A stretch of 64,000 nt of DNA from Tetracentron sinense (taxonomy: Eukaryota; Streptophyta; Magnoliopsida; Trochodendrales; Trochodendraceae). The stretch lies in the NCBI GenBank assembly GCA_015143295.1, contig JABCRI010001020.1, forward strand, positions 38,113 to 102,112, written 5' to 3'. Positions within the stretch are counted from its first letter, which is position 1; every line of letters begins with the position of its first letter. Below the pieces are notes generated by a model. It ran no database searches. It was given only the letters and a program-made list of their open reading frames with translations, and was not told the origin of the DNA. Shown piece after piece: positions 1,293-57,885 of this stretch. The position numbers were made by a program, and so were the translations under genes.

Positions 1293-4261
1293 ATGATGCC
1301 ATACAAGATAAGATCAAATAATGAGTATTCGGAACCTGTCGGGGATATGGGATACAATCTAGAGCTCAAAAGGAGTTCCAGGCATCATCAAAACTCGAGA
1401 ATAGTGAAGGAGAAGATCTTATCACCCCAAGCTGGCCAAAGTCTAAAGCTTCGAGACAGATTAAAATCCGAAAAATCTATTGGTCAGTCACAGGTTGATC
1501 TGCATGATGACATACTACATAATGTAGGGCTCTGTGTCCCTCCTAAATCTTCGGGTAATTCCCAAAAGCAATGGTTCGAGAGGAAGGCAACTGAAGGTGA
1601 TGAGCTTGTCAAGTACATGTCAAATTTGCCAAGCTATCTCCAGCGTGTGGAGAAAGGAGAAAACTTCCAAGAGAAGGCATTGAACTTTGGAGTCCTTGAT
1701 TGGGGGCGTCTAGAAAAATGGAAGGACAATAAAAAAGGGGTCCCAGGCAGAAGTAGCATGTGCACATGGCCCACTAATAATAATTCTTCACTGTGCTCAA
1801 TGGTTGGGTCATCATCCCTCTCTAGTAGTAGAATTCACAGTGGCTCTCATTCTCATCAGAGGAAGCAATCCACTTCATTACGTTCTCATCTGAACTCATC
1901 TCCCAAAGAAGACCATTCCAAAGGTCTCGAATCCTCTCATGGAAATGTTGTAGACCTTCAAGATTTTAAAACTGCTCCCAAGAACACCTCAAATGGACAG
2001 CAAAAGCTCCCCAGGGCAGATCAGTTTTTTGACAGTGATATTTCAGAAATCAATGTTGAGAAGGGAAAGAGGAAGGATTCAGATTCAAAGATCATTCTGG
2101 AAGTTGGAACTTCATCATCAAACTTGAAAGAACATGAGGTGTCATTCAGTTCAAAGGGAAAGATGAAGGCTCGAGATGGTGAGTCTAAAAAGAGAACAGA
2201 GCAGTTACAACAAATGGATTTTGATCTTGCTGACCAGCATTGCCCTGGCAGTCAGAAAACCATTGTTCTGCTTTTGCCCAAAGATTGCTCCCAACGCAAG
2301 TATTCAGGTTTTTCCCAGCTTTCTGAATCTGCTACAATAGATGATGGAAGATCAACGAAAGCAAATCATCTGAGCTTTTCTGATAGCTTTTATCCTGAGG
2401 AGGAGGTTCACTTTGCAGAACTCTATTCTGACATTCCGCACTCATGCCCACTTCCTTGTAAAGACACTGAGGATACAAAGTCTCCATCTGATTCAGCTCA
2501 CTCGTTACCATGCTCAAATGAAATATCGACAAATGGATCCAAAGGCAAACATACAGAAGAGAACAAATCAACCATAAATAATTCAAATTCTACTCTAAAT
2601 GAGACTTCCGATAGATTGGATCTGAAAACAGCTGAAGCAGCAGCTGGAAAAGGAAGAAATCCATCACCTAATCGTCGGTCTAGCATTGGTATGGGTAGGA
2701 GTAGGATGACCAAAAGTTTCAGTTTTAAAGAGGGTTCAGCTGTGCCACAGTATAGCTCAACATATGTTACTGCTAAGTCTGGTCCAGTGAGATCACAGGA
2801 TTCGGATTCATTGGATAATTCAAATAAACAGAAATCAGATGCTAATAGCAGAGCCAGGTCCAGCCCTTTGAGAAGGTTACTAGACCCGTTACTAAAGCCC
2901 AGGGAGGGAGACCATGCTCACTCTGCTGATTCATTACAGGAGGAATCAACATCAATATGCAGGGACTCCAAACCATCTGAAAGATGTTTAGAATCTTATA
3001 CTGTTCATCCAGTGAAAAGAAACTTGAATTTCTCAAGTTGTAGACCAACCAATGCCAATGATTCACATCAGATTGAGAAGCATGAAGTATTGACAATGCA
3101 GGCTCTTCTGCGAGTCTTAGTTAAGAATGGACTCCCTTTGTTTACATTTACAATTGAGAATAGCAGTGTCATTCTTGGAGCCACCACAAAAAATATAAGT
3201 GCATCTGAGAAGGATGATTGCAGCTCGATTTACACATTCTACTCTCTTCGCAAACTCAAGAAGAAGAGTGGAGGCTGGATAAATCAGGGAAATAAAGGTG
3301 AAAATCAAGACTATGTCTCTAACATTGTTGGTCAAATGAAGGCTTCTGATTCTCATTGCTCCAAGTTGGACAAGAACATTTCCCAAGAACAATATATGGT
3401 GAGAGAGTTTGTTTTGTTTGGTATTCAACATAGACATGCAGATCAGGAAACATCAGATTTCCAACCAAGCAGCGAGCTTGCGGCCATTTTTGTCAACTTC
3501 CCAAAAGATACCACGGCAAGTTTAAGCAAGGATGAACAACAAAGCAATAACCATATGGATTTATCAGAGATGAGGGTGCCAGAGGAGAGATGCTCTTGCA
3601 ATTCGTGGGAAAATCTACATAATGGGTGTACTGCTGGAAGTCAAAACCTTTTTCGCACGACAGTCATACTTCCAAGTGCTGATCATGGCTTGCCAAGTAC
3701 AGGAGTTCCTCCACCACTGATTGAGCGATGGAAGTCAGGTGGATCATGTGACTGTGGAGGTTGGGATGTTGGATGCAAACTAAGGATTCTTGCCAACGAA
3801 GAACCATGCAGTAAGATATCGGGATCATCCAAGGCTTGTCCCACCTCAGATTGTTTTGATCTTTATGTACAGGTACTGATTTTATGATTGGACCCAGCTG
3901 TAACATTATTTGTCCTCCTAATCTTATATATGTGCATTTTGCTAATTAGGGTTGCTTCAATCCGTCTCCACAGGGAGAAGCTCAAGAAAACAGGCCCATG
4001 TTCAGCTTTGCTCCATTCAAGAATGAAAGCTCCTCGGTCAATTTCAATGCATCAATCTCTCCGTTACAAGCTTTCTCCATTTGTATAGCAGTTTGGAACA
4101 TATCTGATCTTTCAGATGCGAGTAACTTGTTCCAAGAAAAAGCTTCACAGGAATCCATCTTAATGGAAAATGATAGAATAAGGGGTCCTAGAAGAGTCAA
4201 AGGGGAGGCTCCAGCAAGATATGTGCCAAATCCACCCCTTTCACCTGTTGGGAGGGTCTAG
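1293..4261 (+). CDS. DUF3527 domain protein (plant-specific)
   Basis: There are two coding exons, 1293-3872 and 3974-4261, joined in phase 0 by a GT..AG intron, giving 955 residues. The first in-frame ATG after the in-frame stop at 1224 is at 1293; an upstream GTG at 1272 is not a plausible plant start. The N-terminal part has the family signature PSYLQRVEKGENFQEKA followed by LDWGRLEKW. A long serine-rich, basic middle follows. The C-terminal DUF3527 core includes LFTFTIENSSVILGA, REFVLFG, a PPPLIERWKSGGSCDCGGWD segment, and exon 2 with SPLQAFSICIAVWNISD and a closing YVPNPPLSPVGRV. No biochemical function is established for the family. The CDCGGWD cysteines suggest metal binding, which is inference. 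Family assignment is firm; role is unknown. Confidence 0.9.
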
Positions 4262-39996: not shown

Positions 39997-42725
39997 ATGG
40001 AACACGGTTCCCTCAAGGATCAAAGAGCATCGACATTCTCTTTGACTGATGAGGATCATACTCTCGCAAATTCAGTTAGATTCACCTTGAATCAAGAGTC
40101 AGTACTTGTTAATTCCGTTTAAACTGTTTCCAATAATTTTTTTAAATAGCAACTTTTTTTTACTTTGTATCCCATATGAGAACAGATTTCATGTCCATGT
40201 ATTTGAATTTAGCTGAAATGTGAATGTTTGATCTCAAGTGCCCTGCTGTCAAATTTATCAATGCCATGGTGTCAAATTTGTGGTTCTGTGTTTACTTTCT
40301 CTACTTTATGATCCATCTTTCCCTTTTTTTTCGTGAAATAGTTTCTTGATTTTGCTTGGTTTCTTTTTGAGTTGCATTCCTTACTGCAATGTTTGGTTGC
40401 TGAGAAAATAGGTGAAAACATGGAAAATAAAAGAAAATTTTGGATTTCTAATACAATTTTTAGTTGTGTTTTGTCCAATTTTCTTTTCTTTTCCATATTT
40501 TTACTTATTTTCTCGGCAACCAAACATAGGGTAAAGGATTACACCATGTCCTGCCTATGACTTTTATTTAGTTTTCTTATGAATGGCACTGGGTTCTACC
40601 TTCGGCCATGAATCCAAGAATTCATTGTCTCAGCATTTTAAATGTAATGCTCAGATGAGGTACAACTTGATGGGATTGGTCACATAGCTTAATTCTTGTT
40701 AGTTGTTTTTGAAATTATATACTTGTGAGTCCGAGCAAATCTACCGGAAGAAAACTCAAAGACTGGTGTCCCTGTATTATATATTCCATAGATATATAAA
40801 GATTACCAATTGTGTTGTGTAGTGTTTTTTCCATTTTTTAGATACTGTTATCTAGTGTTTCCCTCCTTTTCTTGTCTTTTTTTTTTTGAACTATTTCTCT
40901 ATTTTGAGTGATAACTTGTCATTTTGCAGTCCAAGGGTAACATTCTGCGGGTACAGCATTCCTCATCCTTCAGATGCTCGGGTTAACATAAGAGTTCAAA
41001 CAACTGGTACTGCACAAACCCTCTGTTGCTAGCGACATATACAAATTACTGTAATGGTTGTTTTAGAATCCATCCATGGAGGAATCAACTCTTGTTAAAT
41101 CTCAGATATAGGTGCTGGTAATGCGGCATTATCAGCTAAAAGAAGGATATATGAAGCTTTTACCTAAAAAAGCATACAAGGCCGTCTATCTCTAGATTGA
41201 GCTAATTAATAAGTTTATGGTGAATAATACATTAGACCCTTTTTGTCTTCCAATACAATCTGTATCAATCATATCACATTTTGTGTTTCTGCAAAATGAG
41301 GTGTTACATAAACTGGTGTGAATCTAATATTGTCAAGATGCTGCAATAATAATTCCAGTCACCTGCTTTTTATGACATGCACCCGGGACATCCCTCTGAA
41401 CAGATATGAAGAACCTGGCATTAACCTTATTGTTATATCCTATTGGCATGTCAAACTAGGCCTTCTTTGATTCTGCAGAAGAAAATCTAGGGCTGTATTT
41501 GAGTCGAGTTGAGCCGAGCTTGGCTAAGCTTGAGCTTGGTTTGATTATGCTTGAGTTCAGCTTGAGCTTGAGTCGAGCTCGAATGTTTAGGCTTGAGCTT
41601 GGCTTGAACAAGCTTGAACGAGCTCATGCTCAGGTTGGCTCAAGCTTAATTTGAATTTCAGGGTTATTTTGATCAAATTTATATAATTTTAGTAAAGTTA
41701 TTTATTATTAAACTAGTGGATGGCACGTGCGATGCACGTGAGAGCGAGAGGAAGGAGTTAATGACACCCGATTGAACTCGCTAGTGGCACATGCAATGCA
41801 CGTGAGAGCGAGGTGAAGGAGTTAACCACAATTAATAGGAATTAAAAGGGGCACGAGTTAACCCACGGGGGTGATTGAATTCTCTCCAAGGTCAATCGCG
41901 ATTGGCTGTGATTCTAAATAGATAGATGGCAAGGGGTAGTTTAGGAATTAAAGTGAAACATTAAATCAAAGGCAAGGGTAATTTAGGAATTAAAGTAAAA
42001 CATTAAATCAATGTTTTGTTTTTATATAAAGATAATTTGGGAATTTCGGAAAATTCAAATCTACGCATGCCTCTCGCATTATAATAGTAAAGATTAGAAG
42101 AAACTACGTAAAATTAATCTAATCTTACGCAAATATCAGTTTTGAGGATACTCCTCTTCAGAAGTAGAGAGTTAGGGAGGTTTTGTTTCTAACTTCTCAA
42201 TTTTTTGTTGTTATTATTACCTTCTACTTACAAGTTAAAAAGTATAATTATATATTAATATAAACAATATTACTAAAATATAATATTAATATATATATAT
42301 AATACTTTTAGACGAGCTGAGCTCAAGCTGAGCCAAGCCGAATCAAACAGGTTCTGGCTCAAGCTTGGCTTGTTTGAACATTCGAGCTCAAATAAAAAGC
42401 TTGGCTTGATCGCTTGTGCCTAAATATGACAAAAATCTGTACCTCTGCCATGTCAACCCATCTTTGGGTTGCATTTGTAGTTTCCTATTATTATTGGTTC
42501 CATTGAGACTTAGTCACTGTCTCACTGATGTAGCAATACCCATTAATTTATATTGCTTGTCTATTTGTTGCTTTGAATCTTGCAGGTGATCCTGCAAGTG
42601 AGGTATTGAAAGATTCACTCCAGGATCTGATGGGGATGTGCCAGCATGTGAGGAGCATCTTTGACAAGGCTGTCATTGAATTTAGAATGAGTGAGCCTGT
42701 TAAAGCCATGAACATTAAACAATAG
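39997..42725 (+). CDS. RPAC2: RNA polymerase I and III subunit RPAC2 (AC19)
   Basis: Three coding exons give 105 residues: 39997-40097, 40930-41006 and 42586-42725, all GT..AG and in phase, preceded by a 5'UTR intron. AC19 pairs with AC40 in the assembly platform of Pol I and Pol III, the counterpart of bacterial alpha and of Pol II RPB3/RPB11. Seen: STFSLTDEDHTLANSVRFTL, the family's DEDHTLxN motif; NQDPRVTFCGYSIPHPSDAR; NIRVQTTGDPASEVLKDSL; and a helical C-terminus, LMGMCQHVRSIFDKAVIEF. The start ATGGAACACGG matches remembered plant relatives (MEHGS). It is a little shorter than the Arabidopsis protein I recall because the acidic, lysine-rich tail is absent. Intron 2 is 1.58 kb and is swollen by a nested transposon insertion. 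Confidence 0.94.
41488..42425. mobile_element. hAT-like repeat in RPAC2 intron 2, split by a Helitron
   Basis: The left part starts TAGGGCTGTATTTGAGTCGA and continues in GAGCTTGAGCTTGG motifs. The right part (about 42310-42425) has the mirrored GAGCTCAAGCTGAGCCAAGC motifs. The start and motif style match the hAT element at 20400-21006, so it is probably the same broad family. The right terminus is decayed and no target duplication was found. About 380 bp of its length is the Helitron at 41713-42093. Confidence 0.5.
41713..42093 (-). mobile_element. Non-autonomous Helitron, 381 bp
   Basis: On the minus strand it begins TCTTTACTATTATAATGCGA and ends in CTAG, with the hairpin CACGTGCATCGCACGTG just before the end. 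It is inserted between host A and T with no target duplication. These are the standard Helitron ends (5' TC, 3' hairpin then CTRR, A^T target). A second hairpin plus CTAG, GTGCATTGCATGTGCCACTAG-like on the minus strand, lies about 75 bases inside, with the same neighbouring sequence. The element thus carries two 3' ends in tandem. No Rep/helicase coding sequence is present. Confidence 0.8.
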
Positions 42726-42825: not shown

Positions 42826-43445
42826 TCATTCTACTAATAAAAGTACAAGGAGTATGCAAAACTTTACTTGGACGTAAATACCTTTTAACTTAATTCATTT
42901 AATACATAACTTATAATATAATTAACCAAACTTTAATTAAGTCACTATTTAATATATGTGGGATTCATTATAAAAAGACAGTTGTTTTAGGACTCTACCA
43001 TATTAGGGAAGAATCCTAAAGGAGAATTGGTTTAGGACTCTTTGAAGAATTCTATTTATGAGAATCTCTCAGAAAAGGAAAGTTGGTTTAGGACTTTACC
43101 ATATTTTAGGGAAGACAATCATGAATAGTATCTTCATATAATCTCTACACACCTATTGATCGACCCTTATGAGAAGAACCGTACAAATTCCGGATTGGCA
43201 CCCAGGGAGCTGCCAAGAAAAGAAATATATTTTTCTAATATTATATTTAAATTAATATAAGAAATATTAAATTTAATTACTTAATTATATTTATATAAAA
43301 TATAATATTGTAATAAAAAAATTTATTTAATATCAAGAGAGTAACGTGACGTCTAATAAAAATATTTTAAAAATTATATATTTTTTCTAAACTATATTTT
43401 AATAATGAAAAAATTATACGTGCCTTGCTCATGCACTTTTACTAG
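42826..43445 (+). mobile_element. Non-autonomous Helitron A, 620 bp
   Basis: It starts TCATTCTACTAATAAAAGTA after a host A and ends ACTTTTACTAG before a host T, with a weak GTGC..GCAC stem just inside the 3' end. It lies about 100 bases after the RPAC2 stop, so it may overlap the RPAC2 3' UTR. There is no coding capacity and the interior is AT-rich. The same 5' end recurs six bases after its 3' end. Confidence 0.65.
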
Positions 43446-44120
43446 TGTATATCATTCTACTAATAAAAGTACAAGGTGTAACCTAAATTTTACATTGACA
43501 AAAATACCCTTTAATTTAATTAAATTATTCTACTAACTTAGGTTAAAGAAGTTTAAAGAGTTTTAAATTAAAACATTCATATCATGAAAAAAAAACAAAC
43601 AAAGAGGTATAGTAAGAAAAGAGGTATAGTTGGTTTATAACAGAATAGCACTCCTTCTCCTTCCTAATCACGTATCAATTCTCCTCCTTTGTATTGATTA
43701 GCATTCATTGATACATATTGGGGGTGGGATGTCTAATTAGAATTCTACTGAATACAACTTACTATTACCAGCCTTCTAATACTATTAAAAAGTATTAGAA
43801 TAGATAAAGTGTATTGTTTTACCAAATGGAAGGACAACTGAAAGTTTCCCCTTGATAGAAGTTAAGAGGCAATAGAGGAGATGTTAATTGCCAGCCTCGG
43901 ATTTCATAGGTGAGAAAGAGTACTGTACTTGATCTCAATACGACCCCTTGGGCTACTCTAAGGACCTGTCAAGTTCAAGGAATACAAAATCAAATAGATA
44001 AAAAATGGTTCATGGTTCATACTCTCACACTCTTGCCTGTATCAATTCAATATTGAATACTCATTCGATCTCCTACTTATGCTTTCTTATTTCATGTTCC
44101 GTCTTTTTTACTTTCTTCAG

Positions 44121-44274
44121 GTCGTCTAGCCTTGTTGGCCGTTGTGGGTTCCTATGTCCAACAGTCGGTTTACCCTGAAACAGGACCATTGGAGAATTGA
44201 CGACCCACTTGGCTGACCCGGGGCACAACAACATTGTGGACATTCTGATCCCCAGATCGGTTTTGTTGTTGTGA
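44121..44274 (+). pseudogene. LHCA1: Broken fragment of LHCA1 (photosystem I antenna), last exon
   Basis: After an intron-like TTTACTTTCTTCAG acceptor, the plus strand reads GRLALLAVVGSYVQQSVYP-TGPLEN, then, one frame over, THLADPGHNNIVDILIPRS and a short tail to a stop at 44272-44274. This is the C-terminal end of an Lhca1-type chlorophyll a/b-binding protein (third membrane helix and lumenal/stromal tail). A small deletion after GPLEN shifts the frame, and no other exons are present within several kb. The kept intron end shows that it came from genomic DNA, not a processed mRNA, as expected of Helitron capture. Downstream sequence to about 44400 may be the parent gene's 3' UTR. Confidence 0.8.
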
Positions 44275-46470
44275 TGGAAGTTTAATCCAAACTCACTATA
44301 AAACTCCATGTAATCATCTATATCTTGATCTATGTAAGTTTAGTAGTAGTTACTACTTGTTATCTTCATCCTGATACTGAAATTAATCTTGTAACTTTTT
44401 ATTTATATTTATGTTAAACAATTTTTAAAAAAATTATCAGATCCTTTTTCCTACTGCAGATAGAACCGATGGATCTTGATTCTTGAACAACACGTGACAA
44501 TGAAGAAGAAAACAAATTTAACGTGGAGTTCTATCTAAAACTAACATTTAGATTACATCAGATATTAATATATTCTCTTCCTTTGTAATTATATCAAAAT
44601 CCAAGAATATGAGAGGCGTGCCATTTGTTTTAAAGATGAACACTGACAGAGCAATTGGAAATTGCATAGATCAATTGGAAACTGCATAACAGAGAAGCAG
44701 CATGCCATCTTATGTTAAGACCAAGTTTGTTTGTTTGGTTTTTTTTTTTTTGGTAAACTCAGTAACACCACAAGGTGAGTACTGAAGGCAAAGAAGGGAA
44801 ACACACACCACACCCCACATGCAAACACACACACACGACAAACATGCAGATAGACCACACACGCAGCCTTGTTCAGACATAATTACTACAAGAAAGAGAA
44901 TGACATGGAAAAAATCCCTGAACATACATCAGTCAAAATCTTCAATATTGCACTACGGATATAAATTTTTTTTGGGAAGCTTCCTTCAGGTTGGGGTTCA
45001 AGCCAATTATGTAGAAGAATTAGCACTCCATGATTTAAGAACTCTATATCATCCTAATTTTGGGAGTCACTTTTATTAACGGTGTTAGGCACAACCCAGT
45101 ATGAAGTTTATGTAGATGTAATTACCCCTAAACCTTTCATGTATTTTTTACCAAGCAAGAATTTCAAACATTTTAAAACTCTTTAAGGTTATCTCGTTAT
45201 TTTGTTATCACTATCAATAAGGACTCTCTATTAGTAGAGATTTGGAAGGACTCTATTATTAATATAAAAAAATCATTTCTTATCTTAAGTTATTAGGTTA
45301 AAACAATTATGTTATTCAAGCAGCATTGAATCGCATTGAATCATTCTTAGGTATGACTACCCCGAAACTCATACTTTTCTGTTAATGGGTTCTCCTGTTG
45401 AACAGGGGGCTTATTATTAATGCTGCGTTGGTGGAGGCTGTAAGACCCGACCAGCCCATAAGCCTGACTTTAAAAGTGAATTTGCGTGATGTTGAACACC
45501 CATGTTGGTAGAGTGGAGAAAATCAAAGTAAATGTATGGTCCTTACAATCTTATGGGAGTGTTTTAATGAGAGCTCTTGGCTTTGAAGATTATTGCATAA
45601 ATTATTTGGCTCTCATGCCAAATATCCATTGATGTACTGCACTTTATACGCTCCTTGTAATGCTGATTCGATGTTCATGCTTGCCATGATCCTGTGATGT
45701 TTATATTATGTATGGCTCTCTTTTATTTAAGCTTGCAATAAAAGATTTTATGTAAATCGCATTGTTTTTTTATTCATTCATCAATAGTGTTTTATATCAA
45801 TGAGGCTAGAGGGTTGTTACGTTGATGAGGTTAAAATTCAATATGAGTTTATGTCTGCAGATACCAAGCCTCTTGAGTTCCTAATGCTATGGCTATCATG
45901 CTTATATACACCTAGCACAGGCAATAGGTTACTTCCACACCATTTTCTTTTATTTAGGCATGATATATACATGTTATGCTTAGTTGTGAACATAATTATT
46001 TAGGCAAGATACAGGTTGTGAGACCAGTGAAGGAGAGAACACAAAAAAATATGAGGGTACAAGGTTTCAACTCATTGTATTATCCACTGTTTAAATCACT
46101 TTCCAGTTGAAGTTGACTCACGTTTATTTTACTTTTTACTTATTTGTTGAACTACATGCAGTCCTTGAAACAAACTTCTAAATATTTCCTCCAAATAACA
46201 GAAGAGATAGAGGATGCGGATATCAACCTCTAGGATGTCCGAGTGATAGGCTATTTATACAATGTTAATTTACTGAGTGTTTAGAAATTTAATGCAAAAA
46301 ATTCATGATTACATGCAAAATCATGCTCTTCTACCCAGTTTTTGAGTTATCTTATCTTGATCCATTTAATATGTGGCTTTTTCCCAACTGTGACGTTTTT
46401 TAAATAACCTATCCTAAATGCCAATTTTAACAGAGTAATATTTTGTTGGGGTTCGGGTTTGAATGGGTAG
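44275..46470. other. Interior of the putative Helitron B
   Basis: No intact gene is visible. An AC-rich run lies at 44802-44835 after a T run. The stretch at 45400-45740 has the texture of transcribed UTR sequence and may be another captured fragment, but I cannot name a source. Open frames at 44819-45079 and 45800-46003 have no known motifs. The last five bases (46466-46470, GGTAG) are the left target duplication of the LTR element. Confidence 0.35.
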
Positions 46471-47328
46471 TGTGAGGGGAAATTACCGAAAGGACACGCG
46501 TCAGCAGCAGCTCCTCCCAAGTTCTGATTAGCTGGTAGAAGACTGGAGTGGAGGGTGTGATACCCTGACCTGCACTCCGATGATTAAGTCAGTAGGTGTA
46601 GGAGATGATGAACAGCAAGAACATAATAGAGAGTTCGAAGGTCTTAGCTCTCCCAATTTTTTCGTCCTCCCTTACACTGTTTTTCACAGGGTTATATAGA
46701 CCACCCTTGCCATGGCCATAGGCACCCATTGATGTCCATGCATACCTCGAATCCCTGATGTGTACTTCAGTAATCATTTTAGATAGATCTTCTGGTCATT
46801 CGTACTGCACGCGCATCTGCACACAAAAAGAGCAGGCAAAGAGTAGGAACTCGTCCGAGGTGACTGGCATTAAATGCAGCATTAAATGCCATTTAATGCC
46901 AAGACAATGTTACCCACCTACCATCGTAGAGGTAGGATCAGTCCCAGGCGACTAGGCAGCAACGCCAGATCTCATTACGTGTTTAGGATACGCGATCGTG
47001 GACAATAAGACGACGGGTATGTCGTCAGAATGAAGACGTGATCGTCGTTCACGAGACCACGGGTCCGTCGTCAGAGTGAAGACGTGATCGTCGTTCACAA
47101 GACCACGGGTCCGTCGTCAGAGTGAAGACGTGATCGTCGTTCACAAGACCACGGGTCCGTCGTCAGAGTGAAGACGTGATCGTCGTTCACGAGACCACGC
47201 TCTCGTCGTTCATACGTCCACGAGCCCGTTGCTGAGGAGACGACGGAAATGAGCTCAAACGATAACACCACACTGAGGACGAGCTCGTTGTTACCACACT
47301 TAGGTTTTTACGAAATTTACCCATTACA
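46471..47328 (-). repeat. 3' LTR of the Tat element
   Basis: 858 bp, with four 46-bp tandem units inside (47009-47192) built on GACCACGGGTCCGTCGTCAG. It matches the 5' LTR over its full length by eye. Confidence 0.95.
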
Positions 47329-47660
47329 AATTGCCCCTTTATGATACTTTGAACGTGGTTCAGAGTGTCATAAATATAGCGAAACGTTGGAGGAGAAGAT
47401 ACAGCTCACCTCAGAATGATGATAGGTCACATACTCTGTACGCGAAGGCGTAGCGTCGTGCCAGCTGTATTGCGCGTGCCGAAACGTCATACCTCATAAA
47501 TGCCTGGCAGGCTGTCATCATTATCTTCCGGACGCTTCGTGTTTCCCGACGGTTACTTGATTTGGTCAAAAGACCATCCTGACCTTCGGACTGTCTGTAT
47601 GCGTGGACACGCGTACGATACAGATTGAGGTCATTATCGTCCTCAGAATCATGGTCTGGC

Positions 47661-47669
47661 CTATAAGTA
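47661..47669 (+). promoter_or_regulatory. Possible TATA box for the plus-strand unit of the Tat element
   Basis: CTATAAGTA lies about 220 bases before the first ATG of the plus-strand unit (47881), followed by pyrimidine-rich leader-like sequence. It is a candidate internal promoter opposing gag-pol. Confidence 0.4.
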
Positions 47670-47880
47670 CCGAAGACCTGGTACTTCTTCTTCACTTGAA
47701 TCTTTGCATCCCGTTACTCTGCCGGAATTTCTCCTTACCGACGATTTGCTGTTCTGGTTTTCCTCCTTCTCCGGTCGTGCCTCCCCTTGCTTCCTAAATC
47801 CAGTTTCGGTAAGAACTTCTTCTTTCTTTTTTATTCTGTAGTTGTCTTCCCTAAATTTCTTTTTCTCTTTGCTTGTAATC

Positions 47881-50244
47881 ATGTCTACCGAAATAGTTAG
47901 GATAGACAGTGCCGATGAGGCTAGTTGCTCAGGCAGTGCCCCTCACGGTGTTATCACCGGCGCTTCCACATCCAAAACCAGACCAGTGGTTAAGTACGCA
48001 CTTGACCACTACAGAACTCTTTTCCAAATACCTTCTCACGTCCACCTCCATTTCGGAGAAGAAGACGTTCTTCCCGACCATCGTTCTTCTTGCACAATCG
48101 TCTACCTCGCTCAGTTCGAGGCTGGACTTCGATTTCCCCTCTCTCCCGTCACGGATTCCGTCCTGTCCGCCCTTCAAATTGCCCCGGGGCAGATGCACCC
48201 GAAGTTCTACAAGTACATGTCTCTGATGGACAAGTTCAACAGAGACGGGTATAACGTGGAAGCCAGGCACGTTTTCCACTTCCGCTTCGCCGTGAAGTGT
48301 CCCGGGGTTGTGAAGGAGGGAGAGAAGACGTTCTTCACTTGGAGACAAAAACTCAAAGTTCCCGACATCGTCGCACACCTCCCCGACGTGGAACGGGGTT
48401 GGAAGGAGATGCCCTTCGTGGTCTCCGGTGCTTGGAGGGCAGAGACTGCCCGTCCTGTTCCCCACGAATTTACCTCAGGTCTGCTATTATTTATTCTTTT
48501 TCCGTCGCCGGTTTTTTTTTGATAACATGTTCTTGCCACATGGCTAATGATATTTTCCTTTTCCTGCAGAGGCTTCAAAGGTACATTTCCCTGATTTGTC
48601 CGCGGAAGAAGAGTACGAGCTCCGGAGAGTTCGCGACGATAAAGGGGACGCCTACGTTACCTGGAGACCGTCCTCGACTCGAGAGAAAGAGCCCGCTGCA
48701 ACAGTAGGGACTAAATCCAAAAAGTCTCGTCGGCAAGCTCGTCCGTCGGCAAAGAGACCGCTCGAACAGGCAGCTGCTCTTGGAGAAGAAGAAGAAATGG
48801 CAGACCAACCTTCTCCGCGATCCTCACAGGCTCCGGCCTTGACTCGTCCTCCTCGCCCTTCCCGTTTATCTTCGGCGGAGAAGAGGGCGGAGAAAAGGGA
48901 GAGAGCTGAAGCTCTCAAGGCTATATCGGCGAAGAAGGCTCGGCGAGAAGCTGAGCATGATCGGCGGGTCCGAGAGCGCGCATCTGCCGAGGCGCCACCT
49001 ACTCAAGTAGCAACGGTTGGCGAGGGGAGTGGTGCCCCCGTGGAGGAGTCTCCGATCATCAGTAGCGGCTCTCCCACGGAGGTTGTGCTCGCTCCGTCTT
49101 CCGTGGCAGAGACTGTTGCCCCGGAGATCGTCCCGGCCTCTGCTCCTTCCCCAGCCGCAAATGTGGCTTCGTCTTCTGCCCCTCCTCGAGAGAGGATTGC
49201 CAGGGGGGGCCCGCCGAATTCTGGAATCCCGTCTTCCCTAGAGGGTACACCCGTCCTACCGTTGCCCATTCTGCGATGGAGCACGACTCTATCGCCACAT
49301 CCATGATGTTGGCGATGAGACTCCCGGCGGATATGGCCGCAACAAGGGACCTGCACTGGATGGGGATGTTCAGTGCTGCGAGCCGAGCTGTTGCCACGGT
49401 ATGTTCTCTTCTCTGCGCGTTTTTTTTTTTTTTTTTTTTTTTTTTTACCATTTTTCTTTCTCTTCTTTTGTAGCTGGGCAACATGCTTGCCGGGATGTAC
49501 GAGGTTACCGCCGAGAACAGGCGTACCTCCAACGGACTGAGGGACAAGGTCCTTGACCTGGAGAAGAGGGGAGCCGAGGACATGAAACGGCTGAATCACG
49601 AGCTGATGTCTGTCAAAGCGGATCTTCGGACCGCCAAAGGCACAATTGCCTCGGCTGTGAAACAGCGGGACAAAGCTCGGGACGAGGCCCGTAAGGCGAT
49701 GGAAGGAGAGAAGGCGGCCGTGGAACAGGCCGAGAGATCCGTCCTCAGGATTAGTGAGATGGACGAGGTCGTGAATTCTCTTCGTCAGCAGCTGGAGAAG
49801 TTAGAAGCTGAAAAAGCAGCATTGGCCGAACAACTCGAGGCCGTCATGGCTGCGAGGGACAAGGAGGTTGAAGCCGCCAAGGAGGCTTTAACGGAGTCTC
49901 TCCGAGCTCACTTCCAGACGGAGATGGAGCGACTGATAACTGAAGACCGGGTCGAGACGGAGAGAGAGCTTATGAATGAACTCCGAGAGTCCGGACGACT
50001 GGTAGAGTCTCCCCAACAGTCGAAGGACGAGGCCACTCGTTCCGAGGCTGTGGGCATGGAGATCTCACCTGGCGAAGAACCCGAAGTACAAGGAGGGGGG
50101 CAACTCTCGTCTTCTCTTGGACCATCTCCCGTCCTGCTCGAGGCTCCTGCGGAAATCGCCTCTGCCAACCCTGCTGCTGCTGCTGACGACGTCTTGACCG
50201 TTCCCGATGACGCTGTCGTGATCGTCGACGTTGCCGAAGACTGA
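47881..50244 (+). CDS. Opposite-strand coding unit of the Tat element (coiled-coil protein)
   Basis: Three open blocks lie on the strand opposite to gag-pol: about 47.88-48.52, 48.60-49.31 and 49.48-50.24 kb. GT and AG signals between them suggest splicing, which is known for such extra units in Tat elements. The first block resembles the domain Pfam calls 'putative gypsy type transposon' (PF04195), with RTLFQIPSHVHLHFG, FEAGLRFPLSPVTDSVLSAL and HPKFYKYMSLM. The second is basic and Ser/Pro/Ala-rich with a possible nuclear signal (KRAEKRERAEALKAISAKKA). The third is a long coiled coil rich in E, K, R, A and L. The function is unknown. The fossil rule limits detail here. Confidence 0.75.
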
Positions 50245-50396
50245 TCCTTCCTCCTTTCCATCTCTTACTTCTCAATTTTGTATCGGCTGTACTCCCGTTC
50301 ATCTTATGTTAATAGAAAATTTCTTTTGTGATCACCGTGTTGCAATCGATTGGTCTAGAATAATTGCCTCGTTCAAATAAGATATGGCACAAAATT

Positions 50397-50850
50397 AACT
50401 CGTGATTGAGTATAAATCTCACAATAAAAATAAAGATAAATCACTAACTCGTGATTGAGTATAAATCTCACAATAAAAATAAATCACATCACTTTTAACA
50501 ACGGGTCGTTAAAGAAGCGGTTTGACACTACGGACGTAATTTGGCAACAAGTCCATTTCGTAAAGACGAACTTATGGTGACTCGTGGTGGGACACCATGC
50601 TCAGAGGACATTCCATTAGTATAAGCCACCGGTATGCTCAGATGGCAATTCCTTTTATGAGCCACCTGTGTCCCGTGGTGAGTACCCTGTTCGTACGAAA
50701 TGTGCTCGCCGTGATAACTCGTGGTGGGACACCATGTTCAGAGGACATTCCATTAGTATAAGCCGCCGTGATGCTCAGATGGCAATTCCTTTGTGTGAGC
50801 CGCCCGTGTCCCGTGGTGAGTGAAATGTACCCGTCGTGGTAATTTGTCCA
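50397..50850. repeat. Tandem repeats between the opposite-strand unit and pol
   Basis: Two arrays are present: a 48-bp period, two copies from 50397, with AACTCGTGATTGAGTATAAA; and a 137-bp period, two copies at 50581-50717 and 50718-50850, with CTCGTGGTGGGACACCATG. Variable tandem repeats in this region are a known feature of Tat elements. Confidence 0.85.
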
Positions 50851-50910
50851 GAATGTTTTACAACGTATTGTTATTTGAAAAATTAACTCGTGGTAATTCA
50901 TAACATAACT

Positions 50911-53900
50911 TTACTGGAAAAATTGTTTTAAATTCATAATGTTCCACGATTTTTGAATTACATTACCTTGTAAGTCTTTAAGGTAGTACACCCCGGGACT
51001 CCCGACACGGTCCACGATATATGGCCCTTCCCAATTGGGACCCAGCTTTCCGCTGTTGATTTCTCGTGTATTTTGGAAGACTTTTCGGAGAACGAGGTCT
51101 CCGACCTGAAGCGTCCTTTCCCGTACTTTCTTGTTATATGCCTTTCGTAATTGTTGTTGATAGCGTTTCATCTGAATGCTGGCGTCTTCCCGTTTTTCTT
51201 CCAGTAAATCTAAGTGAATAGCCATTAACTCGACATTTTTATTTTCCTCTCCGTGTTTCTTCCGTGAACGTGTTGTTGGCAGAAAGACTTCAGTGGGAAT
51301 AACAGCTTCCACCCCGTATGCTAAAGAGAACGGGGTCTCGTTCGTAGGGCTCCGTGGTGTTGTTCGGTATCCCCATAACGCATTGTGCAACTCGCTGGTC
51401 CACTTTCCCTTGGAATCTTCCAATCTTCTCTTGAGGGCATTCAAAATATTCTTGTTGGCTGCTTCGGCAAGGCCATTCCCTTGAGGATAATAAGGAGAAG
51501 AGAAGATGTGCCTGATTTTCAACTCCTGGCAAAAGTCGGCGATAAGCTTTCCTGTGAATTGCTTCCCGTTGTCAGAAATGATGGATTGCGGGATGCCGAA
51601 TCTACAGATAATGTGCTCCCACAAGAATTTCTTCACTTCTTGTTCTCTAATACGCGCCAGGGGAACAGCTTCGATCCACCGGGAGAAGTAATCCGTGGCC
51701 ACGAGCAGAAAAATTAAATTACCGGGAGCTTTGGGGAAAGGTCCCACGATGTCAAGTCCCCAACGAGCGAAAGGCCAAGGTTGAGATACGATGTTGAGTT
51801 CTTGAGCGGGAGCATGAATCAACCTCGCATGCCGCTGACACTGGCTGCATTTTTGTACGTATTTCTGTGCGTCAGCTTGCATGTAAGGCCAAAAATATCC
51901 TTGCCCCAGAGCACGATGAGCGATAGTCCGTCCTCCTGAATGGATGCCGCAAATCCCCTCGTGGAGCTCGGCCAAAATTCTCTCTACATCTTCCGGATGC
52001 ACGCATCTCAAAAGAGGTCCTCCAAAGGATTTGCGATACAGTTCTCCGTCCACAAGGGTGTAACGGGGAGCTTTATATTGTATTCGTCTTGCTTCCTTTG
52101 CATCAGAAGGGAGAATTCCATTCTTCAAATAGGTAAATATGCCCGTCATCCAGCTCGGCACTTGACTTACAGACAACACCGTGCGTTGCGTTTGCAATTC
52201 AATGGAGGGGTATTCTTGATATTCTATGAGGATCGTTTTGGGCTCATCGGTTTGCATCATCGAGGCGAGGTAGGCCAATGCATCGGCATGCCTGTTATCG
52301 TCCCTTCTGACATGTTTGATCTCGAGAACATCAAAGGCCCTCCGTTGCTCTTGTAAAAATGCAGCGTAGCGCTTCATCCGTTCATCCCGACATTCATAGA
52401 TACCGTTGACTTGGTTCACCACGAGCTGTGAATCACAGAACACCCGGAGTTTAGAAACTCCCAATTCTCGGGCACTCTGCAACCCAAGGATTAACGCCTC
52501 ATATTCAGCTTCATTATTGGAGGCAGCATAACCAAGGCGCGTCAACTTCTGCACTTTAACATGATCAGGGCTGACAAGAACAGCACCTAGTCCCGAACCA
52601 CTGATATTAGACGACCCGTCAACATACAAGAGCCAATCGCACCACGCCGTCAGTTTCGTTTCGTTCCCAGTCCCTGTTCCTACAATGGAATCCGCCTCCG
52701 CGTCGTCTGGGAGTTCGTGACGGTCGGGCTCCGCTGAAGTTTCGGCCTCCTCCACGGGGAAATCGGCTAAGAAGCTTGCAACGGCTTGCCCCTTCTCTGC
52801 GGTTCGGGCCTGATATTGGATATCGAACTCGCTCAGCGCCACGGCCCATTTTGACATGCGTCCCGCGGTTTCAGGTCGTCCCAACACAATTTTCAAAGGG
52901 TACGTGGTGAAGACGACGATGGTGTGTGCCTGAAAATAAGGACGTAACTTCTCAGCGGAAAAGACAAGAGCCAGGCATACCTTTTCCACTCTGCTGTAGT
53001 TGGATTCTGCCTTGTGGAATGTTTTGCTGACGAAATAAACAGGCTTCTCTACGCCGTCGTGATTTCTGAGCAACACGGAACCAATGGCTCGTTCCGAGAC
53101 GGAGAGATAGAGGTACAGTACTTCACCAGATTCAGGTACAGAGAGGATCGGTGCGGAGCCTAAATACGTCTTCAAGGCGGCGAAAGATTGGGAACACTCC
53201 TCGGTCCATCTGAAGACGGAATCCTTTCTCAGCAATTCGAACAAAGGTCTGCATCGATCAGAGGACTTTGATATGAACCGGTTGAGAGCTGCGATACGTC
53301 CCGTCAGTTTTTGAACTTCTTTCCTTGTTTTCGGTTCCGGCATATCTATCAGAGCACGGATCTGCGCGGGATTTGCTTCAATGCCCCGTTGGCTGACGAG
53401 ATAGCCGAGGAATTTGCCCGAGGCGACGCCGAATGTACATTTCTCAGGATTTAACTTCAGATTGAAAGTACGTAAAATAGAGAACGGCTCCGCTAGGTCA
53501 GTCACAAGAGAGACCCGAGTTCGGCTTTTCACAACGATATCGTCAATGTACACCTCCACCGATTTGCCGAGCAAGGGTCCAAACATCAGATTCATCAATC
53601 GTTGGTAAGTGGCTCCGGCATTCTTCAGGCCAAAGGGCATGACCCGGTAACAAAACAGGCCACGCTCCGTTATGAAGGCCGTTTTCTCTTGATCGTCCCC
53701 CGCTAAGAGGATTTGATTATAACCTGAATACCCGTCCATGAAACTCAACATCTCGTGACCCGCGGTCGCTGTGATTAGTCTGTCGATTCTGGGAACCGGG
53801 AAGAAGTCTTTCGGGCAAGCTCTATTAACATTGGTGAAATCGATGCAGACCCTGACTTTTCCGTTCTTCTTAGGAACAGCTACCACATTGGCTATCCACT

Positions 53901-54258
53901 CCGGATATTGGACTTCACGAATGAACCCGTGCCGAATTAACTTGTCGATTTCTTCATTGACGGCCTCATGGTACGCCGGAGCGAGTCTACGAGGTTTCTG
54001 TTTAACTGGATTGACCACGGGATCCACGTTGAGATGGTGACAGATGATCTCAGGACGGATACCCGTCATGTCTTCATGTGACCAAGCGAAAACGTCGAGA
54101 TTCTTCCTCAGAAAATTTACCAGTTCCCGCTCTTCATCTGCAGTCAGACAAGTCCCGATCTGTAGCATTCTCGGCTCGTTCTCCGTCCCGAGGTTGACAA
54201 GCTTCGTGGGTTCAACAGAATGGTTTACCAGCGATTCACCCGCGCTCTCCTCTTCCAC
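50911..54258 (-). CDS. Tat element pol: reverse transcriptase, two RNase H domains, integrase
   Basis: A 1,115-residue open frame. Reverse transcriptase includes VPKKNGKVRVCIDFTNVN, SFMDGYSGYNQI, MPFGLKNAGATYQRLMN and the active-site YIDDIVVKS. The usual gypsy RNase H follows (KPVYFVSKTFHKAESNYS, FTTYPLKIVL). Then comes a second, archaeal-type RNase H (LYVDGSSNISGSGLGAVL, NNEAEYEALILGL, VFCDSQLVVNQV, DNRHADALAYLA). Integrase has the HHCC zinc motif (H..H..CSQCQRH) and the DDE core (GLDIVGPFPKAPGN, SDNGKQFTGKLI). There is no chromodomain. The second RNase H is diagnostic for the Tat lineage. How pol is expressed relative to gag cannot be told from sequence. Confidence 0.95.
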   Translation of the reverse strand: MEEESAGESLVNHSVEPTKLVNLGTENEPRMLQIGTCLTADEERELVNFLRKNLDVFAWSHEDMTGIRPEIICHHLNVDPVVNPVKQKPRRLAPAYHEAVNEEIDKLIRHGFIREVQYPEWIANVVAVPKKNGKVRVCIDFTNVNRACPKDFFPVPRIDRLITATAGHEMLSFMDGYSGYNQILLAGDDQEKTAFITERGLFCYRVMPFGLKNAGATYQRLMNLMFGPLLGKSVEVYIDDIVVKSRTRVSLVTDLAEPFSILRTFNLKLNPEKCTFGVASGKFLGYLVSQRGIEANPAQIRALIDMPEPKTRKEVQKLTGRIAALNRFISKSSDRCRPLFELLRKDSVFRWTEECSQSFAALKTYLGSAPILSVPESGEVLYLYLSVSERAIGSVLLRNHDGVEKPVYFVSKTFHKAESNYSRVEKVCLALVFSAEKLRPYFQAHTIVVFTTYPLKIVLGRPETAGRMSKWAVALSEFDIQYQARTAEKGQAVASFLADFPVEEAETSAEPDRHELPDDAEADSIVGTGTGNETKLTAWCDWLLYVDGSSNISGSGLGAVLVSPDHVKVQKLTRLGYAASNNEAEYEALILGLQSARELGVSKLRVFCDSQLVVNQVNGIYECRDERMKRYAAFLQEQRRAFDVLEIKHVRRDDNRHADALAYLASMMQTDEPKTILIEYQEYPSIELQTQRTVLSVSQVPSWMTGIFTYLKNGILPSDAKEARRIQYKAPRYTLVDGELYRKSFGGPLLRCVHPEDVERILAELHEGICGIHSGGRTIAHRALGQGYFWPYMQADAQKYVQKCSQCQRHARLIHAPAQELNIVSQPWPFARWGLDIVGPFPKAPGNLIFLLVATDYFSRWIEAVPLARIREQEVKKFLWEHIICRFGIPQSIISDNGKQFTGKLIADFCQELKIRHIFSSPYYPQGNGLAEAANKNILNALKRRLEDSKGKWTSELHNALWGYRTTPRSPTNETPFSLAYGVEAVIPTEVFLPTTRSRKKHGEENKNVELMAIHLDLLEEKREDASIQMKRYQQQLRKAYNKKVRERTLQVGDLVLRKVFQNTREINSGKLGPNWEGPYIVDRVGSPGVYYLKDLQGNVIQKSWNIMNLKQFFQ

Positions 54259-54276
54259 GGATCCGACCTGTAATTG

Positions 54277-56664
54277 CTATTTGAGCGGGTTGGGAGAGGT
54301 ATAATCACACTTCTGCGATGCCAGTTGGTCTCCTCTTATTTCACGCGGTCCATCCGGTGTGGGGAATTTCAATACCTGGTAATAAGAAGACGGAACAGCT
54401 CTCATTTCGTGAGTCCACCATCGCCCCAGGATAGCATTGTATGGGGACGGCGCATCGATAATGGAGAATCGGGTGGACAAGGTGATAGGTCCAGCTCTGA
54501 CCGGTAAGACGACTTCGCCCAGGGGTTGCATCGAACTTCCTTCGAATCCTACCAAGGGGGTCTGTGCGGGTACAAGAACCGCTGGATCCAACTCCATCTT
54601 CGTGAAAGCATGGAGGTACAGGATATCTGCTCCACTCCCAGGGTCTATGAGCACTCGTCTGATGTCGAAATCGCCAATTCTCATGGACAGGACAAGAGCA
54701 TCGTAGTGAGGTCTGACTACAGTTGCCATGTCTTGGTCAGTGAACATTAGGGCCTGCTCGACTTCCTTCGTCGTCGACCGCACTTGGTAAACTTCTGCCA
54801 CGTGCGATAACTTCCTTGCTTTCGCTCGATACTGCTGCTCAACGTCGACTTCCGGTGCTCGAGCGCGATGGATGACGTTTATGACTCCTTTCGGAGCTTC
54901 TCCACCTCGGTTCATTTGACCAGATGGCTCTCCCTCGTGAGGCCGAGTGGATGGCTCCGTTATATGCCCCTCTTTTCTTCCAGAATCCACGTATTCTCCC
55001 AGATAGCCCTCACGGACTAATCTTTCCAAGTATTCTCTCAGGATGCGACAACGATTCGTGAGATGCCCATGGCACTTGTGGTATTGACAATATTCGTGTG
55101 CCCTGGGTCCCGTAGTGACATCACGAACGGTCCGTGCTGGCCATTCGAAATATGGTTCGTCTTCCATCGTCTTCATGATCGTCGCTGGGCTTGCTGTGAA
55201 GTTAACTTGACCACCACGAGACGCAAAAGGACGTCTTTCTGTTGCTCGATTTTCCCTCTCCTTGTAATGCCCGGATTCCTCCCGTCCTCGATAGGCACGG
55301 TCGTCCCTCCGCCGGAGATTGGACCGTAGATCCGTTCTCCTTGACGAGTCTGCATCTTGGCGGATTCCCAGCGAGAGTCGATTCGATCCTCCTTGTCGTT
55401 CAACGTACACAACTTTTTCTTGTCGTATGCGTCTGCGTGGTTCCTCGTCACTGGATGATGATTCATACTTCGATCTCTTCCCTCTCTTTGAGGAGGGTCT
55501 GCTTCCCCATTCCACAGCGTCTACTCCTCGTGCTCTAGGCCTCGTTGTTGCCGCAATATCTTCCTCCATCCTTCCGTACTTAGAGGCACGGACTATCAGC
55601 TCGTCCATCTTGATCGGACAGTCAAGGGCAAGAGACTCGTAGAGTTTGGAACTCTTGGGTATGGCGTTCTTGAAGGCCGCTATGCAAGTGCAGTCCTCAA
55701 TCTTGTCGATATTAGAGACTTCATCGGTAAACCGTTGAATAAAATCTCTAAGAGACTCCGCCGACTTCATTCTCATGGCGAAGAGGGAATCTGCACCAGC
55801 TTTCTTTTTCTTGTTGATGATGTACTGGTCAATAAAAACTGACCGGAGATCAGCCATGCACCTAATCGACCCCGCGGGGAGATTACGGAACCATCTTGCA
55901 GCCGCTCCAGTCAGGCTGCTAGGGAAGGCTTTGCAGAGGAGATTGTCATCCGGGTTACGGACAGCCATGGCATTTTTGAAGTCGGTCAGGTGGTCAATAG
56001 GATCCCTCCTCCCATCGAACTTAACAAAATTAGGCACCGTGAACTTTGACGGGGTATAAGATTCAACGATTTCCTTGGAGAAAGGGGACGTCTCCTCCTC
56101 GTCCTTGTACTTCTGAGCATACTGATCGAGAGAGGCTCCACCTGTCGTTCCTCTGACTCGAGCGTTAATCAAGGCTTCCACGTCTTTGAGAGTCAAACCC
56201 GTCTTCAACCCGCTGTCGCTGACGTGGAGATCTCGACGTTCAGCATGAGCATCAAGAGAACGGGGGCGGGTAGCTTCGTCAGCAGAAGGAGTGAGAGTGA
56301 ATCTCCTCTCCAGATTCTCTGGTGCAGATGGCGAGATCGGGGCCGTTCCTCTGGGGGGAGGAGAAGAAGGGAAATTGAGTTTACGAGCTGCAGAGCCCCC
56401 TCTAGGAGATTCGTCATCGATCTCCAAGTTTCCGTGCTCCAAAGCATCTAGCCGCTCCTGCAGTGACTGTTGCTGGCTGACTACTTGGGCCAGAGTGGCC
56501 TGTTGTTGTTGTAATAGTAGCAGGATGGGATCAGATGTGGTCATGGGCCTTTCTGGTTGTCCAGAAGGTGGGCCTGACGCGAATGTTTGCATGGTGGAAG
56601 GGGTGCATGAAAAGGCTTGAGGGGGCTGGTGCTCGATGAAAGACTGGGGAGTTTGGTTTGCCAT
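54277..56664 (-). CDS. Tat element gag-protease
   Basis: A 795-residue open frame. The N-terminal region is Q/P-rich. The retrotransposon gag domain is at about residues 200-330 (KFDGRRDPIDHLTDFKNAM, AARWFRNLPAGSI, ESLRDFIQRF). An arginine/serine-rich linker follows, then a zinc-knuckle-like CQYHKCHGHLTNRC, and an aspartic protease domain with VLIDPGSGADILY near residues 680-690 and YNAILGRWW. It lies directly upstream of pol on the element strand. Confidence 0.93.
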   Translation of the reverse strand: MANQTPQSFIEHQPPQAFSCTPSTMQTFASGPPSGQPERPMTTSDPILLLLQQQQATLAQVVSQQQSLQERLDALEHGNLEIDDESPRGGSAARKLNFPSSPPPRGTAPISPSAPENLERRFTLTPSADEATRPRSLDAHAERRDLHVSDSGLKTGLTLKDVEALINARVRGTTGGASLDQYAQKYKDEEETSPFSKEIVESYTPSKFTVPNFVKFDGRRDPIDHLTDFKNAMAVRNPDDNLLCKAFPSSLTGAAARWFRNLPAGSIRCMADLRSVFIDQYIINKKKKAGADSLFAMRMKSAESLRDFIQRFTDEVSNIDKIEDCTCIAAFKNAIPKSSKLYESLALDCPIKMDELIVRASKYGRMEEDIAATTRPRARGVDAVEWGSRPSSKRGKRSKYESSSSDEEPRRRIRQEKVVYVERQGGSNRLSLGIRQDADSSRRTDLRSNLRRRDDRAYRGREESGHYKERENRATERRPFASRGGQVNFTASPATIMKTMEDEPYFEWPARTVRDVTTGPRAHEYCQYHKCHGHLTNRCRILREYLERLVREGYLGEYVDSGRKEGHITEPSTRPHEGEPSGQMNRGGEAPKGVINVIHRARAPEVDVEQQYRAKARKLSHVAEVYQVRSTTKEVEQALMFTDQDMATVVRPHYDALVLSMRIGDFDIRRVLIDPGSGADILYLHAFTKMELDPAVLVPAQTPLVGFEGSSMQPLGEVVLPVRAGPITLSTRFSIIDAPSPYNAILGRWWTHEMRAVPSSYYQVLKFPTPDGPREIRGDQLASQKCDYTSPNPLK

Positions 56665-56719
56665 GCTGACCGAGAGGTGGTGTGAGCGAAGGGTGGTTTC
56701 GGCTTAAGAAAAAAAATTT

Positions 56720-56735
56720 CCCACAGACGGCGCCA
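56720..56735 (-). other. Primer-binding site of the Tat element
   Basis: Four bases inside the 5' LTR, the element strand reads TGGCGCCGTCTGTGGG, a primer-binding sequence common in plant Ty3/gypsy elements. I do not assign the tRNA. Confidence 0.75.
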
Positions 56736-56739
56736 ATTT

Positions 56740-57597
56740 TGTGAGGGGAAATTACCGAAAGGACACGCGTCAGCAGCAGCTCCTCCCAAGTTCTGATTAG
56801 CTGGTAGAAGACTGGAGTGGAGGGTGTGATACCCTGACCTGCACTCCGATGATTAAGTCAGTAGGTGTAGGAGATGATGAACAGCAAGAACATAATAGAG
56901 AGTTCGAAGGTCTTAGCTCTCCCAATTTTTTCGTCCTCCCTTACACTGTTTTTCACAGGGTTATATAGACCACCCTTGCCATGGCCATAGGCACCCATTG
57001 ATGTCCATGCATACCTCGAATCCCTGATGTGTACTTCAGTAATCATTTTAGATAGATCTTCTGGTCATTCGTACTGCACGCGCATCTGCACACAAAAAGA
57101 GCAGGCAAAGAGTAGGAACTCGTCCGAGGTGACTGGCATTAAATGCAGCATTAAATGCCATTTAATGCCAAGACAATGTTACCCACCTACCATCGTAGAG
57201 GTAGGATCAGTCCCAGGCGACTAGGCAGCAACGCCAGATCTCATTACGTGTTTAGGATACGCGATCGTGGACAATAAGACGACGGGTATGTCGTCAGAAT
57301 GAAGACGTGATCGTCGTTCACGAGACCACGGGTCCGTCGTCAGAGTGAAGACGTGATCGTCGTTCACAAGACCACGGGTCCGTCGTCAGAGTGAAGACGT
57401 GATCGTCGTTCACAAGACCACGGGTCCGTCGTCAGAGTGAAGACGTGATCGTCGTTCACGAGACCACGCTCTCGTCGTTCATACGTCCACGAGCCCGTTG
57501 CTGAGGAGACGACGGAAATGAGCTCAAACGATAACACCACACTGAGGACGAGCTCGTTGTTACCACACTTAGGTTTTTACGAAATTTACCCATTACA
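56740..57597 (-). repeat. 5' LTR of the Tat element
   Basis: 858 bp, matching the 3' LTR by eye. It includes a TATA-like box (element strand CTATATAA, near 56961-56968) and four 46-bp tandem units at about 57278-57461. It is followed by the right GGTAG duplication at 57598-57602. Confidence 0.95.
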
Positions 57598-57885
57598 GGT
57601 AGTATAAGCTTACAACTCAATTTATATAGTAAAACAAAAGAAGAATCTCTTTGCCCCCACCCACAAGGATGACTTATAGTCATTGTTCTAATATATGTTA
57701 ATTTACTTATTATTTTATATTACTTAGTGATCATTAATAATTTAAAAAAATTCTAGATTTAAAAAAAATCATCCTTTTTTTTAAAAACAAATCTCATCTT
57801 TTGGAGTGATTGCTTCGGGTTTACTCACTTAAAAAAACATTTCTTAAATTTTATTAATAAAAATTAATACGTGCACCCTTACTAG

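Follow-up and report, generated by a model that had tools for sequence, protein, structure and literature searches.

Helitrons that carry fragments of host genes have been described in maize, where capture was reported to be stepwise (Dong et al. 2011, PMC3288121; here and below, published systems are compared as they appear in excerpts of the papers cited). We analysed a comparable locus in Tetracentron sinense, a stretch of 64,000 nucleotides (the window, C247:38113-102112) on the 102-kb scaffold C247, and searched the 1.16-Gb genome for its relatives. Very probably, the window contains, close to the gene RPAC2, a non-autonomous Helitron with captured pieces of LHCA1, a Pumilio gene and a third sequence, which was later split by a long terminal repeat (LTR) retrotransposon of the Tat type. 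A gene-fragment Helitron interrupted by a retrotransposon is a known kind of event, and this locus is a clean example of it. Like the maize elements (PMC3288121), the Helitron is non-autonomous, carries several gene fragments, has relatives with Rep/helicase and ends in CTAG; unlike them, it resides in a different plant, its pieces come from LHCA1, Pumilio and an unnamed parent, and its copy in the window lacks the 3′ hairpin.

The TC and CTAG ends, the A|T target and a hairpin ahead of the 3′ end are also features of the bat element Helraiser/Helibat (PMC4778049), which has been reconstructed and is active, whereas the window element is known from its sequence. Deletion of the Helraiser hairpin led to less transposition and more read-through at the 3′ end (PMC4778049); these effects were measured, whereas the hairpin loss in the window is an observation on the letters. 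A search of one literature collection found no paper combining Helitron, capture and LHCA1. The locus offers an example of capture of fragments from several genes together with a naturally lost hairpin, and several of its layers can be read in order: relatives without LHCA1, a chimera at six sites, paired Helitrons, and one locus with and without the retrotransposon.

Helitron ends and the copies that share them

The element and its two ends lie as follows.

43452..57885, + strand: second Helitron of the locus, 3,302 bp of own sequence (43452-46470 plus 57603-57885), split by the LTR element; recognised by ends and contents as in six other copies
43452..43476, + strand: Helitron 5′ end, TC after host A; read from the sequence
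57864..57885, + strand: Helitron 3′ end, CTAG before host T; 11 nt including one hairpin arm missing relative to five other non-allelic full-length copies

The length of 3,302 bp is that obtained after removal of the LTR element and one GGTAG. A first-pass annotation of the window had noted that the same 5′ end occurs at 42826 and 43452, and the two indeed share 25 identical bases. Across the genome, the 29-base family 5′ end has 675 exact occurrences (1,431 with at most one mismatch). The 3′ end, AATTAATACGTGC...CTAG|T, terminates at 57885, and its proposed pairing with the 5′ end across the LTR element was borne out by the other copies. The genome was searched with the first kilobase of the element, its interior and its last 283 bp, and matches were cut out with their flanks; this yielded six other full-length copies (C11:5.53M, C2:15.70M, C5:32.95M, C17:36.85M, C2:51.75M and C15:19.77M), comprising five unrelated sites and, at C11, another version of the window locus. 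Both Helitron ends are present in all six, and no case of the 43452 5′ end pairing with a different 3′ end was found among them. A chance pairing of ends was rejected on the basis of this consistent pairing and of a reversed control pattern, which had no match in the 1.16 Gb.

The five copies at unrelated sites all carry the LHCA1 fragment and are without the LTR element of the window. Copies free of that element, for which the first-pass annotation had proposed a search, thus exist: those at C11, C5, C17 and C2:51.75M are uninterrupted, and those at C2:15.70M and C15 carry other inserts (3.8 kb and 2.4 kb, respectively) at other points. Copy lengths range from 3,285 to 3,338 bp, except for the latter two (7,089 and 5,760 bp). 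With these two unrelated inserts cut out first, pairwise identity among the seven copies is 96.1-97.7%, and 99.7% between the window and C11. The flanks of the five non-C11 copies show no match to the window flanks; only the shared 5′ end also matched the short Helitron next to it.

All seven full-length copies end in CTAG (CTRR type) and six of them start with TC, the C15 copy reading TA. All 19 flank strings (two of which are versions of one site) have a host A directly before the 5′ end, and a T follows CTAG in 18 of 18 family-type 3′ ends examined, a count from which other loose-pattern matches were left out. No target duplication was seen at the Helitron insertions in the copies compared. 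Because of its TC and CTAG ends, the A before and T after them, and the lack of a visible target duplication, we class the element at 43452 as a Helitron. The end motifs are short and lie 14.4 kb apart in the window, so that one might instead suppose that ordinary rearrangement brought the pieces together and that the Helitron ends on either side are unrelated to them; since the entire chimera recurs as one unit with the same ends at five unrelated sites, we regard this as extremely improbable.

Captured gene fragments

Between the Helitron ends, three pieces match sequences elsewhere in the genome.

43941..44553 (right edge approximate), + strand: LHCA1 fragment with the end of the penultimate exon, last intron, last exon and 3′ flank; 78.5% and 78.2% identical to two LHCA1 genes
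45304..45740, + strand: fragment of a Pumilio (PUF) gene in sense orientation; two stretches, 69.5% and 79.9% identical to C7:46.69M
45822..46311, strand not assigned: third piece, perhaps genic; 73% match to C13:8.37M

The LHCA1 piece starts at element position 490 and has the same orientation as the Helitron, as the first-pass annotation had stated; its extent, given there as an acceptor plus the last exon, is longer. The identities to the two LHCA1 genes refer to 43941-44322, and a further collinear match of 29 bp was found with the C12 gene only. When the corresponding piece of the C12 host gene was compared with PDB (629 matches), the top five were LHCI chains of one entry, with Lhca1-named chains from rank 8 among the 60 matches listed. 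Since the two LHCA1 genes are 79.5% identical to each other, which is close to their identity with the captured piece, the capture would be roughly as old as the LHCA1 gene duplication. The presence of the last intron rules out a retrocopy and indicates that the piece was acquired at the DNA level.

All seven copies have lost one base in the part from the penultimate exon. In the last exon, the window and C11 alone have a frameshift in common, C15 has a different one, and the splice acceptor is altered in the C17 copy. The genome search with the LHCA1 piece gave ten places. Eight of these belong to the seven Helitron copies, C15 accounting for two, and the other two are the LHCA1 genes; the search, which the first-pass annotation had proposed, gave no LHCA1 piece elsewhere.

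The parent of the second piece, at C7:46.69M, encodes PUF repeats according to Pfam. For the third piece, a Pfam search of one frame near its match at C13:8.37M returned no match. Judged by these similarities, the element carries pieces of at least two host genes.

Five partial relatives of the chimera were also extracted. Two of them (C13:17.16M and C95) still have the Pumilio piece and the third piece, at 77-78% identity over element positions 1853-3284, and the region containing LHCA1 is unmatched in both (positions 61-1150 in C13 and 1-1150 in C95). The C13 relative has both ends, with its 3′ end about 1 kb further on, and matches the element at positions 1-60 and then again only from 1151. 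For C95, C468 and C2:21.05M only the 3′ end was seen within the extracted stretches; the relative at C4:38.49M, in which no 5′ end was seen, reads CTAAG instead of CTAG. Those at C468, C2:21.05M and C4:38.49M are each interrupted close to where the third piece begins, by 5.5-8 kb of other sequence, and the break at C468 and C2:21.05M repeats 5 bases of the element.

Retrotransposon entry and the order of events

The interruption of the window copy consists of the following features.

46471..57597, − strand: LTR retrotransposon, Ty3/gypsy Tat type, 11,127 bp; from LTRs, target duplication and domains
46471..47328, − strand: 3′ LTR (in the element's own sense), 858 bp; from LTR comparison
56740..57597, − strand: 5′ LTR (in the element's own sense), 858 bp; identical to the other LTR
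46466..46470, no strand: left target duplication, GGTAG; single copy in C11
57598..57602, no strand: right target duplication, GGTAG; single copy in C11
54277..56664, − strand: gag frame; Retrotrans_gag, E=7e-10
50911..54258, − strand: pol frame with, in this order, reverse transcriptase, RNase H, second RNase H (RVT_3) and integrase; Pfam domains
47842-48522, 48596-49306 and 49483-50244, + strand: three open frames running opposite to gag-pol, in the interval from pol to the 3′ LTR

The 11.1-kb LTR element with perfect target duplications reported in the first-pass annotation was recovered with exactly these boundaries. Its LTRs show no difference over 858 positions and have TG...CA termini, and the target duplication is 5 bp long. 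A second RNase H, together with extra antisense frames, is what we take to mark the Tat lineage, to which Grande, RIRE2 and Retand presumably belong. In the window element the second RNase H matches RVT_3 (E=5.1e-20), and the antisense frames at 47842-48522 and 48596-49306 had no match in Pfam. The arrangement of gag-pol and antisense frames between pol and the 3′ LTR resembles that of Grande, RIRE2 and Retand (PMC7264820); assignment to the Tat type is made here by domain layout and not from a tree. LTR relatives are full-length or nearly so at 89-99% identity among the best 40 of 1,943 candidates. As large repeat families were scored for their best candidates only, such counts of relatives are lower bounds.

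The C11 sequence matches the window beyond both Helitron ends, over 3 kb on each side at 99%, and contains both Helitrons of the locus with a single GGTAG and no retrotransposon. On account of these flanks and of the presence of both Helitrons, we regard it as another version of the window locus, so that filled and unfilled versions of the retrotransposon site can be compared directly. Within the Helitron, the two versions differ at 9 of 3,301 positions, whereas non-allelic copies differ by 2-4%. Apart from C11, the window flanks had no further copy among the top 40 of 8,796 and 11,505 candidates, to which scoring was limited.

Taken together, the comparison supports an order in which capture was followed by spread, insertion near RPAC2, the split into C247 and C11 versions, and entry of the retrotransposon into one of them. 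Capture preceded spread, because the cargo is common to all seven copies. An ancestor would have acquired the Pumilio, third and LHCA1 pieces at the DNA level, the LHCA1 piece possibly later; the chimera, for which related elements presumably supplied the Rep/helicase in trans, would then have reached six sites or more, including one near RPAC2 next to a 620-bp member of the family, and the Tat-type element would have entered the C247 version after the locus had split in two. The shared ends and contents, the target duplication and the filled and unfilled versions are seen in the sequences themselves; trans-mobilisation, the capture mechanism and the order of captures are inferred. The sequence of capture, insertion near RPAC2 and retrotransposon entry had been proposed in the first-pass annotation and stands; added to it are the further pieces, the spread after capture, the restriction of the retrotransposon to one of two versions, and the loss of the hairpin.

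Several points weigh against this account. The first concerns C247 and C11, whose status as alleles is unproven as against a recent duplication. Both sequences are in one assembly, as would be expected if they were recent segmental duplicates, one of which received the retrotransposon. The 102-kb size of the C247 scaffold is that expected for an unplaced haplotype, and pairs of a scaffold and a chromosome with similar scores recur among the relatives (C95-C13 and C468-C2:21.05M, not compared within pairs); neither point is decisive, and we consider a duplication unlikely. Second, the relatives at C13 and C95 without LHCA1 fit stepwise capture, and their state could also be due to loss. An early LHCA1 piece, later lost from these relatives, would do away with stepwise acquisition, and the C13 match pattern is explicable by one deletion, with C95 unmatched before 1151. 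On the other hand, LHCA1 forms a discrete block nearest the 5′ end, and the genome search detected it nowhere but in the two genes and the seven-copy subfamily; we consider early capture with later loss less likely than not. Third, no empty Helitron site was found, either by a joined-flank genome search, made for one site only (C17), or on comparing the flanks of eight copies with the loci extracted for this analysis.

A further point against it is the 3′ hairpin, which is absent from the window copy: 11 nt with one arm are gone, and the remainder does not fold. By sequence, a 6-bp hairpin situated 13 nt from the end has both of its arms in each of the five other non-allelic full-length copies, and its commonest form (ACGTGC-AAA-GCACGT, three of the five) folds at -5.8 kcal/mol, a value matched by 3 of 200 shuffles. 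The 11-nt loss lies between two GTGCA repeats and, among the seven copies, is common only to the window and C11. We read it as a derived change in one member rather than as counter to family membership.

The last such point concerns the related Rep/helicase element. At C2:1.84M, an open frame of 1,114 codons (stop to stop) matches Helitron_like_N (E=5.4e-61) and PIF1 helicase (E=1.4e-73); the family 3′ end comes after it, at 1848947. Upstream of the frame, 1836793 marks a family 5′ end, and about 1.1 kb inside it a scar consists of a degraded family 3′ end and then 5′-like sequence. Because of this scar the 5′ boundary of the C2 element is uncertain, and the end at 1836793 may belong to a shorter neighbour. 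The scar itself (L064:1438-1527) shows a degraded 3′-end hairpin before the 5′-like sequence, as if a deletion had fused two Helitrons. A second Rep/helicase relative, at C8:0.69M, is 98% identical to the C2 element over its last 592 bases, with the same 3′ end at a different site. Another family 5′ end, at C4:7283969, lies 3.8 kb before a Helitron_like_N match at C4:7287822 on the same strand; this match has three stop codons.

TA tracts and the RPAC2 neighbourhood

TATA precedes 464 of the 675 exact 5′ ends genome-wide (69%) and is present in 18 of the 19 flank strings, two of which represent one site and most of which come from loci picked by similarity, not at random; the exception, L052, has no TATA and is still A|T. 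In maize, HelA2 excision has been reported to leave variable TA repeats (PMC10095026). We tentatively suggest that the family favours or leaves (TA)n tracts beyond A|T, and that members without a hairpin may read into adjoining DNA, which might make the element near RPAC2 a potential source of new captures; this is a conjecture to which we give limited credence. The TA-tract bias bears on whether plant Helitrons pick or create TA repeats.

The neighbours of the element are the following.

39997..41008, + strand: RPAC2 (Pol I/III subunit AC19), two conserved exons; motif scan and PDB matches
42826..43445, + strand: short first Helitron of the same family, 620 bp, TC...CTAG; ends by sequence

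In PDB, both RPAC2 exon pieces have their best match in an RPAC2 chain (E=0.0083 and 1.9e-08). The first Helitron starts about 1.8 kb downstream of the conserved exons and the second about 2.4 kb past them. The two Helitrons (42826-43445 and 43452-57885) stand 6 bp apart within a TA tract, and C11 has both. The 3′ fold of the 620-bp Helitron is weak (-2.1 kcal/mol, matched by 43 of 200 shuffles). A relative at C4:38.50M shows a similar loss of a hairpin arm and reads CTAAG. Smaller relatives (L050-L052) are 95% identical to the element over the first 220 bp and have the family 3′ end, with an interior that is not shared.

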